Assembly: GCF_001719125.1 (NCBI RefSeq)
Contig: NZ_CP017006.1
Location: forward strand, 2,494,384-2,558,383
DNA length: 64,000 nucleotides
Reading direction: 5' to 3'
DNA from: Sulfolobus sp. A20
GTDB taxonomy: Archaea; Thermoproteota; Thermoprotei_A; Sulfolobales; Sulfolobaceae
Below, in pieces: positions 15,550 through 64,000 of this stretch. The translations under genes were made by a program, and so were the position numbers. Numbering within the stretch: position 1 is the stretch's first letter; each line of letters starts with the position of its first letter. The notes beneath the pieces are model-generated. The model made no database searches, was not told the DNA's origin, and worked only from the letters and a program-made list of their open reading frames with translations.

Positions 15550-16126
15550 AATAAAGAACCTTTTTTATCTTAGTGCTGAGTCGCTGTAATCGTACTAATT
15601 CCTCATTGTCCTATTTTTTAGGTCTATTAAGAAAAAATCAAGGTCAAAGTTTTTGGTCCTTCTAGGAATTATCAAGGTTTTTTAAGTCTAAGACTGTAAA
15701 ATGAAGGGGAAAACACGAATAAGGGAAGTTAAACCTTTATATGCACACATGTTTTTAGATCTCAAGGAGAGATAGAGGATCTTACTTGAAAAAATACAAG
15801 GGATAATTCGGCTAAAAACCTAACATAGCGACACAATGAGGACAACCTAGCCTCTTAGGGCGGGGAGGAAGTCAGATACCGAATGAATAGAGAGGGCTGG
15901 AGAACTTGCTATGAAGTGATGAAGGTAAATAACAACCCTATGAATCATAAAGGAACTCTCTTTAGTACGTAAGGAGGTAAATGGTAATTTATAGTTATAA
16001 CTTACTTTACTATATGGCATTATTATCATAAATCTAAGGCTAATAGATTTTGAGATAATCTCCTAAAGGTAAAAACTCTTAACTAGTATAACGCAAAAAT
16101 TTGATAACTTTTTATATATTATTCTA
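15550..16126. other. Intergenic with TnpB-element end
   Basis: No gene between convergent transcription units. A likely T-tract terminator lies at the left edge, and an IS200/IS605-type end hairpin sits at 15838-15876. Purine-rich sequence near 15750-15790 looks like eroded IS DNA. Confidence 0.45.
15838..15876 (+). repeat. Solo IS200/IS605-type end hairpin
   Basis: AATGAGGACAACCTAGCCTC, then TTAGGGCGGGGAGGAAGTCAG. It matches the plan of the end after the TnpB relic at 24494-24526 (gaGGGGAACCTCTAAAGG then GGGGAAGTCAG). No transposase remains nearby. Confidence 0.5.
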
Positions 16127-58471: not shown

Positions 58472-59719
58472 CTATTTAAGAAATTGTTCCTCTAGCTCAA
58501 GTAAATATGCATAATTCGTATGATCTTTAACTTTTGCCTTAGGATCGATTACCTTTTGATTTAATATCTCTCCCATTGACTTATTATTCACTTTTATCTC
58601 AATTCTCTTCCTAAAAATGCTTAAACAGTGGAGAAACTCACCAATCCCATCTAAATTTCCATCTGTTAATTTATCCAAGAATATAACGTCTACCCCTCTA
58701 CTCTTAGCTGAATTAGCTACGCCTTGATCTGCCGTTATTAACGTAACGTGGTCCAATTCACCCTTCAATTTCTTAGTCTCATTTACAAATTCTACATCTC
58801 CTACATTATTACTTTCCGTAGCTAAGGGAGGAGCATGTAAGGATCTAAAGGTGTATGAAGCTAATTGAAATATTACTTGTTTTTCTCCCTTCTGAGTACT
58901 TTTAGCATAATTATCAATTTCATTGAATATAGTTCTCGTTGGCAATAGCCTTCTGCCATACTCTCTATCATAAATTAAATTACTTATTCTCGTACCTAAT
59001 TTGATATATACGTTTGTATCAGCAACGAAGAAAGAACCTTGTCTTGCTTTTTTTACTATGTCTTCCTCTTCCTTATATCTTAGCAAACCAGCCCGCGTAG
59101 CACACAATAGAACTTCATTCTCTCCCCTTTTGTACGCCTCACTCTCCTTCACGTATTCTCTTAGGTCATTAACTTCGATACCGTCTATAACTATCTTAAC
59201 TTCACCTAAAAGGGAGTAAATGTTTATTAACGCTCTTATTGAATCATCTGAAAGATCATAAGTATCTTTACCTTTTTTCACATCTATGGGATTAAATGGC
59301 ACTTGAGTACCTTGCCTTACATCTATTACTTTTACTTGATCAAACGGTATATATCCAAATACCTTATACCCTTGACTTTCATTCTTTATGTAGACATACC
59401 TAACTTCATTAGCCTTAGAGTATGCATAAACTGAAATCGCCATATATTTTCTTCCAGGCGTAATATCAGCTATATCAACATCTAAATTTGATACGTAATT
59501 TCTCCACTTCTCCACCCCCTCTCCTACGACTTCGCTTTTAACTTTGACCTCTTTGCCAAACAATGAGAGCATTTGACTTATTAATGGGATCTTCTGTTGA
59601 TTTTTAGAATCCTCTGATAAGATGTAAATCTCATCTGGCAATATCCCGGTAAACACTTCAGTTAGAATAGCATTAGTTGGAGTAACCAACTTATCTGATC
59701 CTAAAACAGCAAGTCTCAC
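58472..59719 (-). CDS. Predicted CARF-PIN nuclease
   Basis: 415 residues. N-terminal domain (about 1-140) reads as a CARF-like Rossmann fold: LAVLGSDKLVTPTNAILTEV opens it, and DVDIADITPGRKYMAISVYA at 80-99 carries the D-x-T-x-G-x-K-x-M motif used by CARF proteins to hold cyclic oligoadenylate. A linker helix region follows. The C-terminal part (about 228-350) is a PIN RNase: FFVADTNVYIK (Asp234), TRTIFNEIDNYAK (Glu267), GELDHVTLITADQGVANSAK (Asp323, Asp331). The last 60 residues are of unknown fold. GTG start, leaderless from its own strong TATA. CARF fused to PIN is known as a rare combination in archaea, and no close experimental precedent is known to me. It probably degrades RNA when a type III CRISPR signal molecule is present. 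Confidence 0.68.
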   Translation of the reverse strand: MRLAVLGSDKLVTPTNAILTEVFTGILPDEIYILSEDSKNQQKIPLISQMLSLFGKEVKVKSEVVGEGVEKWRNYVSNLDVDIADITPGRKYMAISVYAYSKANEVRYVYIKNESQGYKVFGYIPFDQVKVIDVRQGTQVPFNPIDVKKGKDTYDLSDDSIRALINIYSLLGEVKIVIDGIEVNDLREYVKESEAYKRGENEVLLCATRAGLLRYKEEEDIVKKARQGSFFVADTNVYIKLGTRISNLIYDREYGRRLLPTRTIFNEIDNYAKSTQKGEKQVIFQLASYTFRSLHAPPLATESNNVGDVEFVNETKKLKGELDHVTLITADQGVANSAKSRGVDVIFLDKLTDGNLDGIGEFLHCLSIFRKRIEIKVNNKSMGEILNQKVIDPKAKVKDHTNYAYLLELEEQFLK

Positions 59720-59740
59720 AATATATATAATTTGTCAGTC

Positions 59741-59750
59741 TATTTATATA
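59741..59750 (-). promoter_or_regulatory. TATA box of CARF-PIN gene
   Basis: On the minus strand TATATAAATA, a full archaeal consensus, centred 26 bases before the GTG at 59719. The transcript would therefore start at or next to the start codon. A second AT-rich stretch at about 59722-59733 overlaps the start site. Confidence 0.65.
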
Positions 59751-59761
59751 TCTATGCTACT

Positions 59762-60079
59762 TCATCTTGAGGTTTTGCCAGTATATAAAATACCCTTCTC
59801 CTTAAAACAGTTCTGAATTATATACTTGACCTTATCTTCTTTAAATCCAATACATGACGTTTCTATAACTTTCTCATACCTGGGATCAAACACTATTTTA
59901 CACGTTAACTTGTAATTTATCGAGTTCAATATTATCTCCACTATTATACCAATATTTACCTTAGCCTCAAATAATATCCTTAACCTATCAACTTCTATAT
60001 AGTATTGTCCAGAGTTATTCATCCCTATCTGATCGCATATTAGCAATCTTTTAATGTCCAAATCACTCACCAGCTTCAA
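59762..60079 (-). CDS. Unknown protein, third gene of membrane-protein operon
   Basis: 105 residues, no recognised family. A mixed beta-alpha pattern: IKRLLICDQIG, a beta hairpin SGQYYIEVDRLRILFEAKVN, then IGIIVEIILNSINYKLTCKI and a C-terminal helix VKYIIQNCFKEKG. It overlaps the previous gene by 17 bases, so it is translationally coupled. It sits 42 bases upstream of the CARF-PIN start. Confidence 0.55.
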   Translation of the reverse strand: MKLVSDLDIKRLLICDQIGMNNSGQYYIEVDRLRILFEAKVNIGIIVEIILNSINYKLTCKIVFDPRYEKVIETSCIGFKEDKVKYIIQNCFKEKGILYTGKTSR

Positions 60080-60401
60080 CTAAAACAGTCAATTGTTCTT
60101 CACATTTTATCCCCTTATTCTTAAATAATGGGTTTAACCTATTCTCGACTTCTTTTGCTATACACTCAATATACTTCTCCATTCCTTCTGGGACCTCAAT
60201 TAACTTATAATAGTATATTTTACCAGACAAAAAAGGTGGAGGAACATAAGCTCCTAACGTTGAGTTACTTCCTATATAATCTACATAGAGAACCCTAGCT
60301 TGAGTCCTAATTATTAACACTAAGTTTCTCTCTAAAGCCAATTTACCCTTAACTTGAGATGGGAATACTTCAATACCCTCAATCCTCACCTTTATAAGCA
60401 T
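60063..60401 (-). CDS. Unknown protein, second gene of membrane-protein operon
   Basis: 112 residues, no recognised family. Beta-rich start (MLIKVRIEGIEVFPSQVKGK, LVLIIRTQARVLYVDYIG), a Gly/Pro segment (GAYVPPPFLSGKIYYYKL) and an alpha-helical end (EKYIECIAKEVENRLNPLFK). It overlaps the membrane gene by TAATG and the next by 17 bases. Similar size and layout to the next gene suggest, weakly, that the two may pair. Confidence 0.55.
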   Translation of the reverse strand: MLIKVRIEGIEVFPSQVKGKLALERNLVLIIRTQARVLYVDYIGSNSTLGAYVPPPFLSGKIYYYKLIEVPEGMEKYIECIAKEVENRLNPLFKNKGIKCEEQLTVLVEAGE

Positions 60402-60796
60402 TATCCGAACATCTCCTTTTGGATCCTAGCGTAGTAATACAAGTCTACTATTTGGATCAGACATAACGCCATTATCGAGATTATAAAGATTAGAATATCA
60501 AATGGTGGTTTAAAATATAGCCAGTACGCAGAGTATATAATTATGGCTAAGACGGATTTAGATATTCCGTAATATTCAGCGTACTTCAAGCTCATGCTTA
60601 TCATACCTAATATTAACGCATTAAACACACCTGAAATTAGTGGGACAGCTGTCAATATTGCCTTAACGTCCGGATTAGATATTGGTAAAGGTTTGATCAA
60701 GAGTAATGTAAATAATGATAAGGAAAGTATAACGTTTACCGAATATAATACAGATGAGGAAATGAGGACGATCCTATTTAAGGATCTTAAATCCAT
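60401..60796 (-). CDS. Small membrane protein, first gene of operon
   Basis: 131 residues, four predicted membrane helices (about 8-33, 46-68, 80-93, 97-118) with a short basic end (YYYARIQKEMFG). A GGGAG ribosome-like site lies six bases before the ATG, and TATA-like boxes lie near 60811-60840. It heads the operon that ends before the CARF-PIN gene. Membrane proteins next to CARF nucleases are known among type III accessory effectors and could mean membrane disruption or anchoring. This is inference from position. Confidence 0.6.
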   Translation of the reverse strand: MDLRSLNRIVLISSSVLYSVNVILSLSLFTLLLIKPLPISNPDVKAILTAVPLISGVFNALILGMISMSLKYAEYYGISKSVLAIIIYSAYWLYFKPPFDILIFIISIMALCLIQIVDLYYYARIQKEMFG

Positions 60797-61693: not shown

Positions 61694-61703
61694 ATTTATA
61701 TAA
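61694..61703 (+). promoter_or_regulatory. TATA box of the 61.7 kb operon
   Basis: ATTTATATAA is centred 27 bases before the ATG at 61725, the standard leaderless spacing in this window. This places the transcript start at the small ORF rather than at the large gene at 61820. Confidence 0.6.
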
Positions 61704-61724: not shown

Positions 61725-61820
61725 ATGAGAGCTCAATTAGAAAAACCCATTCAACGTTTAAAATACAAGAAGACTAACTTTGCTAGTAGGGACGTGTTTT
61801 TTACTAGAGGGTTAGATTAA
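61725..61820 (+). CDS. 31-residue leader ORF coupled to the next gene
   Basis: MRAQLEKPIQRLKYKKTNFA and then SRDVFFTRGLD. Basic at the N-terminus (pI high). The stop TAA overlaps the ATG of the next gene (TAATG), so it is translationally coupled. The last 11 residues echo the start of the next protein (RDVFFTRGLD versus MDVFFIPPLD), matched by a 30-base imperfect direct repeat at about 61790-61820 and 61822-61853. It may be a true leader peptide or a remnant of the original N-terminus. Confidence 0.5.
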   Translation: MRAQLEKPIQRLKYKKTNFASRDVFFTRGLD

Positions 61821-63292
61821 TGGACGTATTTTTCATACCCCCTTTAGATAATGATACTTCCCTCTTCTTAGAAATAAAATTGGATGAGGAAATACCAGAA
61901 GGGGAATATGAGATAAGAATACACGATGGTAGGTTAGAGAGGTTAAGGGCTAAGGTGAAAGTCCTTCAACCGACTAAGGTGATAAGGATTAATAAGGCTG
62001 ATGAAATCATTGAATTCCCATCTATCTTAAGTGAGGAATGGAACTTAACGTTATTCCTTAAGGGGAGGGGTTTAGAGAAATCTCATGAATTTCAGGTTAA
62101 AATTAATACTTCCTTTAATTCCTTTTCGTTCAGATCGGAAATTCATAAGCATTATAACATAATTTCTAAAATAGAGAGACAATATGGACAGTTAGACCAT
62201 AACTCTGCCTTAGCTTTAGCTTTTATATTAGACAACGGATTCTCAGAAGTCTTCCTATATAAAGATAAGAAATATGAGAAGTTAAACCTTCATATTGCGA
62301 GGAGTAACTGGGATGATGAATTCATTAGATTAATAAAATACGTAAAGGATAGCCAAACATATCTAGTATTCTTATTGGACGACCTATATGACGATCAAGG
62401 TAAGAATGAGTTCAGTGAGGGGATATTTACGCAATCATTATTACCCCCAGATGAGGCTTTGAGAAAGGTAGGAGTCATTAGCTCTTTAACAGGTTACCCA
62501 ATGTTATATAACTACGTCTCTAACGTAATAAGACAATTTAAGGTTAAGCTGTTAGGCATTATTGGTAAAAGCGATGAAAGAGATTACTTACTGTTCGCTA
62601 AGATCTTACCTATCATATACAAGCGTAAGTTCAAGCTACCAAAATTTCTAATCCATAAGAGGAGTATGATTAAAGAAATTAACGTTGATAAGGCAATAGA
62701 CCTATCCTTAACTCAAGGAGACGTAGTAATAAAACTTCATAACGAGGACCCTGAAAAATATTTAGACAAAGTAAAGGTAAACGCACTGAAGTGCTTCACG
62801 CTCACTCTTAACCCTTCACGTAATATTAGCTTTCCAGTAATTAGGAAAGATATTTCATCAGATGACCTATTGACTATAGTAAACTCAATTGACGGAGAGT
62901 ATACCTTTGATTTTTTGGGTACACATTCCCACTTCTTAAAAGTAAACAAGGGTTTGATAGTATTCTCTCCAAAGTATAGATGTAAACATTTAATTTTCAA
63001 TTACACTGGAGTTTACAATAGTCAACATAGTAATAAGATCGCAACATATCTAGGAGTAGCTAGCGGGAATAGGACAAGTGAGAACTTAGAGATCCCATCA
63101 TATCTATTTAGGCAGGAGCATATTTTGGGAATAATCCACTTAATGAAGAATGGCTTCGTTGAGTTGTTCCACGTTTCGAGATCGTATCCTCATAAAAGAG
63201 TTTTAATAAGGGCGCTAGAGGAAGTTAAATTGCCGTTTGAGGCGTGGGTAGAGAGTCAAGCCGTTTACACTGATAGATGGTCCCTAATTTGA
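61820..63292 (+). CDS. Unknown 490-residue protein
   Basis: No recognised domain. It has an N-terminal beta-rich part (about 1-100: LFLEIKLDEEIPEGEYEIRI, LRAKVKVLQPTKVIR), a middle helical part (about 115-270), and a C-terminal part with FNYTGVYNSQHSNKIATYLG and EHILGIIHLMKNGFVELFHV (about 390-445). No transmembrane helix or signal peptide. It overlaps the leader ORF (TAATG), and the next gene begins 10 bases later with a GAGGTGACC site, so an operon of at least three ORFs. Length and lack of similarity suggest a component of an accessory or defence system; this is not proven. Confidence 0.6.
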   Translation: MDVFFIPPLDNDTSLFLEIKLDEEIPEGEYEIRIHDGRLERLRAKVKVLQPTKVIRINKADEIIEFPSILSEEWNLTLFLKGRGLEKSHEFQVKINTSFNSFSFRSEIHKHYNIISKIERQYGQLDHNSALALAFILDNGFSEVFLYKDKKYEKLNLHIARSNWDDEFIRLIKYVKDSQTYLVFLLDDLYDDQGKNEFSEGIFTQSLLPPDEALRKVGVISSLTGYPMLYNYVSNVIRQFKVKLLGIIGKSDERDYLLFAKILPIIYKRKFKLPKFLIHKRSMIKEINVDKAIDLSLTQGDVVIKLHNEDPEKYLDKVKVNALKCFTLTLNPSRNISFPVIRKDISSDDLLTIVNSIDGEYTFDFLGTHSHFLKVNKGLIVFSPKYRCKHLIFNYTGVYNSQHSNKIATYLGVASGNRTSENLEIPSYLFRQEHILGIIHLMKNGFVELFHVSRSYPHKRVLIRALEEVKLPFEAWVESQAVYTDRWSLI

Positions 63293-63302
63293 GGTGACCT
63301 TT

Positions 63303-64000
63303 TTGAATCTGGCCATAGACGACATTGAAGAGATAGAAGAAATATATGAAGTATTAGAGAAATTAACTAATAGTCTCAAAAAGCTAAGTTGGGTTGAGGA
63401 ATATAAGGCTAGCCTAGGTTTCACACTTAAAAATAATAATATTAACGTTAAGATAAAGAAGAGGGATGCTGAACTCTCCCTACCCTTAGATCTCATAGAT
63501 AAAGCTGAGAGCATTTTTAGGGAAATTATGGGTTTTGAAGTTAACCTGGTGATTAACGACAATCCTTTACTAATACATAGGGTTGTCGACAATTTCGCCA
63601 AGAATTTCAAATATATTGAGATAAACCATAATAGTATAGGCTTAGGAAGTAACGATAGGGCTCATTTCATCCTCGTTAACTGTTTCGACCAGATGGACAT
63701 TTTACGTGATATCTTGACTACTAAGTTGTGGTTCAGTAAAGCCTTTTTGGACTGCAGTCACATCAGCAACGATCTTTTGAGTTTTATTATTAGGAGTAAA
63801 GTTTACTTCAGGGAGTTGAAGGTGAATAGTGATGGTGTACTAATTTACTTTAACTCTTTCGAGGAACAGACATATGATAAAGAGTTTAAGGTAGTCTTTT
63901 CCCCTCCCTCTTCATTTAATGGAGAATTCCTTTATGGCTTACTTAAGAGAGAGATCAGAGTACCTAAAGTGGAGTTGGTCGCCATCGATCATCAACTGAG
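63303..64000 (+). CDS. Unknown protein, cut by window end
   Basis: TTG start at 63303 with a GAGGTGACC ribosome site 6 bases before it. The first 232 codons read without a stop (MNLAIDDIEEIEEIYEVLEK, LTNSLKKLSWVEEYKASLGF, later IHRVVDNFAKNFKYIEINHN, AHFILVNCFDQMDILRDILT and VVFSPPSSFNGEFLYGLLKR). Acidic coiled N-terminus, then alpha/beta. No family recognised. It is the third ORF of the 61.7 kb operon; its end lies outside the window. Confidence 0.6.
   Translation, partial: MNLAIDDIEEIEEIYEVLEKLTNSLKKLSWVEEYKASLGFTLKNNNINVKIKKRDAELSLPLDLIDKAESIFREIMGFEVNLVINDNPLLIHRVVDNFAKNFKYIEINHNSIGLGSNDRAHFILVNCFDQMDILRDILTTKLWFSKAFLDCSHISNDLLSFIIRSKVYFRELKVNSDGVLIYFNSFEEQTYDKEFKVVFSPPSSFNGEFLYGLLKREIRVPKVELVAIDHQL

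Follow-up and report, generated by a model that had tools for sequence, protein, structure and literature searches.

A compact two-gene orphan operon in a defence-rich region of the Sulfolobus sp. A20 genome

The window, by which we mean the whole stretch of DNA analysed here (64,000 nucleotides), corresponds to positions 2494384–2558383 of the single-contig, 2,688,317-base genome of Sulfolobus sp. A20, a strain from Costa Rica (PMC5127849). At its right end stands a genuine compact two-gene operon, which comprises p490 and p267 and is preceded by a short leader ORF (Table 1). The stop codon TAA of the leader ORF shares bases with the ATG of p490 in the sequence TAATG, GAGG stands 9 nt ahead of the same ATG, and GGTGA follows p490; the 31-codon leader ORF, the TAATG overlap and GGTGA all lie where the initial annotation had placed them. 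It had also spoken of two large unknown proteins. This was borne out for the 490-residue product, whereas the second protein has 267 residues and finishes 106 bases past the window (genome position 2558489; gene at L002:9687-10490). Extension beyond position 64000, which had been proposed in order to complete the operon, thus brought the second gene to its end at 64106, and the pair stops there, with no additional gene coupled to p267. The start of p267 taken by the ORF-listing program was GTG 63294, giving 270 residues; TTG 63303, in the same frame and 5 bases past GGTGA, is favoured.

Table 1. Features of the p490–p267 operon and its nearest neighbours. Positions are those of the window unless given as L002 or genome coordinates.
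Feature	Position	Strand	Description	Basis
TATA box TTTATATA	61695..61702	+	30 nt 5′ of ATG 61725; predicted leaderless transcript start	
Leader ORF	61725..61820	+	31 codons, pI 10.5; translated, or a mere 95-nt 5′ leader	
GAGG	61807..61810	+	possible Shine-Dalgarno site of p490, within the leader ORF	sequence
p490	61820..63292	+	orphan, 490 aa, 57 kDa, pI 8.4	codon usage and searches
GGTGA	63293..63297	+	Shine-Dalgarno site of the second gene, abuts the p490 stop	sequence
p267	63303..64000, onward to 64106	+	orphan, 267 aa from TTG 63303, 31 kDa, pI 5.4	
CARF-PIN gene and three small preceding genes	58472-60796	all on one strand, opposite to p490/p267	CARF-PIN protein of 415 aa	
Interrupted frame	L002:10818-11085		decayed gene between p267 and mcrB, no Pfam match	
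McrB-like AAA+ and McrC-like partner genes	L002:11334-14253 (genome 2559333-2562252)	same as p490/p267	566 aa and 403 aa	

A TTTATA box begins exactly 30 nt 5′ of the first ATG of the operon. Such placement is rare: TTTAWA falls between −29 and −32 ahead of just 23 of the 2158 ATGs in the window (1.1%), and is lacking there at both the p490 and the p267 start. Because the box is rare at this distance and missing before the later two genes, a leaderless transcript starting from or beside ATG 61725 is a reasonable and natural reading, in line with the original description of a leaderless small ORF. Codon support for the leader ORF as a protein is weak: its codon log-odds of 0.18 is equalled or exceeded by 7% of wrong-frame segments. 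For this reason, and with no match among the genus's six other genomes, it may be no more than a 5′ leader. The predicted fold of the leader RNA was unremarkable (z 0.19), and no structured RNA was detected in the leader or the surrounding region.

The 490-codon open frame of p490 is far above chance for the local base composition. Codon log-odds per codon were 0.21 for p490 and 0.145 bits for p267, compared with 0.07–0.44 for annotated genes and a median of −0.10 (90th percentile, 0.11) for wrong frames. The codon usage of both genes is thus coding-like and at the low end of the range of annotated genes, as for acquired genes. Both proteins are without transmembrane segments and show no mutual sequence similarity. 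An internal duplication in p490 was borderline, its best split being matched by 2% of shuffles; no duplication was found in p267.

Relatives of the two proteins were sought in 197–229 genomes of the order and class, in 398 genomes of the phylum and in GTDB, viral, phage and plasmid collections. The genome searches, with one genome per species, were more sensitive than the collection scans, which require short exact peptide matches and so detect close relatives only. No relative of p490 was found in 229 class genomes or in the 398 phylum genomes, and none of p267 in 226 class genomes; neither protein appeared in two GTDB scans, two viral-contig scans, phages or plasmids. The two top phylum matches of p490, both identified by eye, one as an arginyl-tRNA-synthetase-like ORF and one as a repetitive, beta-rich ORF, were put down to chance. 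Similarly, apart from the lead discussed below, neither protein had a relative beyond chance in Pfam, NCBIfam, PHROGs, PADLOC or the PDB sequences, and none of the PADLOC 2023 anti-phage families matched either one. p267 matched 8qae, a designed coiled coil, at E 0.0011 among the PDB sequences, which reflects only its helical N-terminus. Across all the databases and genomes covered, nothing resembled p490 or p267, and the operon remains, as first described, unrecognised and free of familiar domains.

Single-sequence AlphaFold models had a mean pLDDT of 38.9 (p490) and 41.2 (p267), a poor quality due to the lack of relatives, and at these values no fold was assigned to either protein. In the p490 model the N-terminal ~95 residues form a beta-sandwich of modest confidence, with moderate confidence limited to residues ~20–60 inside it. 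Foldseek comparison of the models with the PDB and viral structures gave no credible match, the models being of too low quality for meaningful matches. Neither the profile nor the structure searches suggested at the outset assigned a family or fold to the two proteins.

The only profile lead concerned uroporphyrinogen-III synthase (HemD). NCBIfam NF004592 matched p490 residues ~228–328 with an E-value of 3e-3 for the whole protein, 2e-4 for the segment and 8.5e-4 for the whole genome, and did not match any of nine reversed or shuffled controls. The score of 21 bits is nevertheless far under the curated cut-off of 332 bits, and an independent profile made with 18 HemD sequences from Sulfolobales ranked p490 under many shuffled copies. 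A separate hemD is encoded in the A20 genome. A HemD-like domain in p490 is thus unsupported, and the weak profile match may echo a generic alpha/beta fold. A likeness to CHAT proteases, seen by eye near residues 350–390 of p490, was also rejected: the Pfam profile was negative, and the CHAT domain (PF12770) had no match in the A20 genome even at E≤10.

The surroundings of the operon are rich in defence genes. On its left side lie the CARF-PIN gene (PADLOC E 5e-154), preceded on its own strand by three small genes (105, 112 and 131 aa) with no Pfam match over the cut-off, and a type II restriction-modification pair that consists of a methyltransferase and an endonuclease (E 5e-90 and 6e-179, PADLOC search). 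On the right side are a McrBC-like pair, a PIN/antitoxin-like pair and an AAA_15 (OLD-like) ATPase. The genome also carries type I-A and III-B CRISPR systems with cmr1-6 (PMC5127849). The defence-rich, variable setting of p490–p267 is therefore real, and the defence island recognised in the initial annotation held up with neighbours on both sides. One gene picked on each side of the operon had no shared neighbourhood in six other genomes of the genus. A20 is reported to have no synteny whatsoever with other strains (PMC5127849), which makes the missing flank synteny weaker as evidence for an island. No tRNA gene was present in the 19 kb around the operon.

Repeated sequence was also seen to the right. 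A 60-nt direct repeat (95% identical; L002:14667-14726 and 15849-15908) brackets two genes, one for a PIN-domain protein and one for a putative antitoxin. The AAA_15 ATPase has 479 residues (L002:16162-17601), and a near-identical 94-aa copy of its N-terminal region lies a few kb off (L003:1931-2215), representing a partial duplication.

Taken together, intact frames, well-placed promoter and ribosome sites, the lack of relatives and the defence neighbours suggest a strain-restricted, horizontally acquired two-gene accessory operon, for which we tentatively propose the role of a two-subunit defence or anti-defence module. The leaderless 31-codon ORF would head the transcript carrying p490 and p267, and the leader ORF could set the p490 level through coupled re-initiation. 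Both proteins are probably cytoplasmic, since they have no membrane segments. They may act as one complex: the genes lie side by side and are coupled through a ribosome-binding site, and the proteins carry opposite charge, p490 being basic and p267 acidic. In such a complex p490 would contribute the sensor or effector, and p267 might regulate or scaffold it via its helical N-terminus. The most likely role would be that of a fast-evolving module directed against viruses or plasmids.

A defence role for p490–p267 is suggested only through guilt by association; neither protein yielded a catalytic motif, fold or homologue backing any activity, and nothing was found that ties either of them to the neighbouring defence systems. 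No second genome among those searched carried them, and the CARF-PIN gene lies on the other strand. The stronger proposal, a previously undescribed two-subunit Sulfolobales antiviral system with folds absent from family databases, we regard as unlikely. As a counterpoint to the defence reading, orphan genes are common in A20 and many are not defence genes. About 140 A20 genes are missing from four compared Sulfolobus strains, and over 80% of the strain-restricted genes across these strains are hypothetical (PMC5127849). An orphan pair of this kind is therefore not unusual. Should it prove to be a defence module, it would represent a new family, invisible to current detectors based on known profiles; should it prove ordinary cargo specific to the strain, it would be a further example of orphan genes filling archaeal variable regions. 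Being compact and complete, with clear boundaries, the operon readily lends itself to testing.

The main rival to the defence module is that an integrated virus or plasmid left the pair behind. In this reading, to which we give perhaps one chance in four, p490 and p267 would have served in the structure or replication of an archaeal element not yet sampled. Archaeal virus genes are typically orphans, and the variable region around the operon contains duplicated and decayed fragments, as would be expected of such an origin. The pair, however, matched nothing in the phage, plasmid and viral-contig collections, the two flanking genes checked, one per side, are of chromosomal type, the 19 kb around the operon are free of tRNA genes, and p490 and p267 stand alone under their own promoter.

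Rather unlikely is that the pair is selectively neutral, recently acquired cargo, functionless in A20. It was seen in a single genome among those searched, and in codon usage p267 comes close to the bottom of the range of real genes, both as expected for such cargo, but neither long frame is broken, and promoter and ribosome sites are suitably positioned.

The McrBC-like pair downstream offers another explanation, namely that p490 and p267 serve this type IV restriction system as accessory or specificity subunits. The nearest solved relatives of the 566-aa AAA+ protein are McrB subunits (E 3e-8), and it has MNxxD (ATMNLVDV) at the place of the McrB motif MNxxDRS (PMC7680126). Its 403-aa partner contains an ECKY motif and had no Pfam match. 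The two pairs resemble each other in strand, two-gene layout and location in the same island; p490 and p267 lie 590–840 bp 5′ of the McrBC-like genes, the distance being about 590 bp when measured to the first ORF listed after p267 and 840 bp when measured to the first real gene, and McrBC systems are known for many genomic associations (PMC11090510). Against this, the gap contains decayed sequence, which makes one transcript from p267 to mcrB unlikely. The McrB/McrC-like pair occurs in about 25 Sulfolobales genomes (mostly 37–53% identity), in either gene order and at times in two copies, and in none of 20 Sulfolobales neighbourhoods did it have p490 or p267 relatives beside it. Additionally, p490 and p267 showed no similarity to the adjacent McrB/McrC-like proteins, and the search for McrB AAA+ GTPase motifs or a McrC nuclease in them gave no AAA or nuclease family match. 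As the McrBC-like pair recurs across Sulfolobales independently of p490–p267, the two appear to be separate modules, and a common system is improbable.

It is least probable, and in our view very doubtful, that p490 and p267 belong, in strongly diverged form, to an archaeal two-gene defence system already known, such as a short Argonaute pair (SiAgo with Aga1; AfAgo-N/AfAgo, PMC10954474), which likewise consists of two adjacent archaeal genes for proteins of similar size, since the A20 genome had no Piwi match at E≤1 (Pfam), p490 aligned with three Sulfolobales Argonautes, and p267 with Aga1-like (N-L1-L2-like) partners, at an hhalign probability of just 0.3% with phmmer negative in both cases, no Piwi, Aga1 or Aga2 similarity was seen, the gene order is the opposite in the two pairs that have a clear upstream partner, and the CHAT-protease and HemD-like readings failed as well. 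Short Argonaute operons were observed in other Sulfolobales genomes (L078 and L079), with Piwi proteins of 465–469 aa, most of them accompanied by partners of 337–349 aa. In one Sulfolobales genome, two such operons sit less than 10 kb apart.
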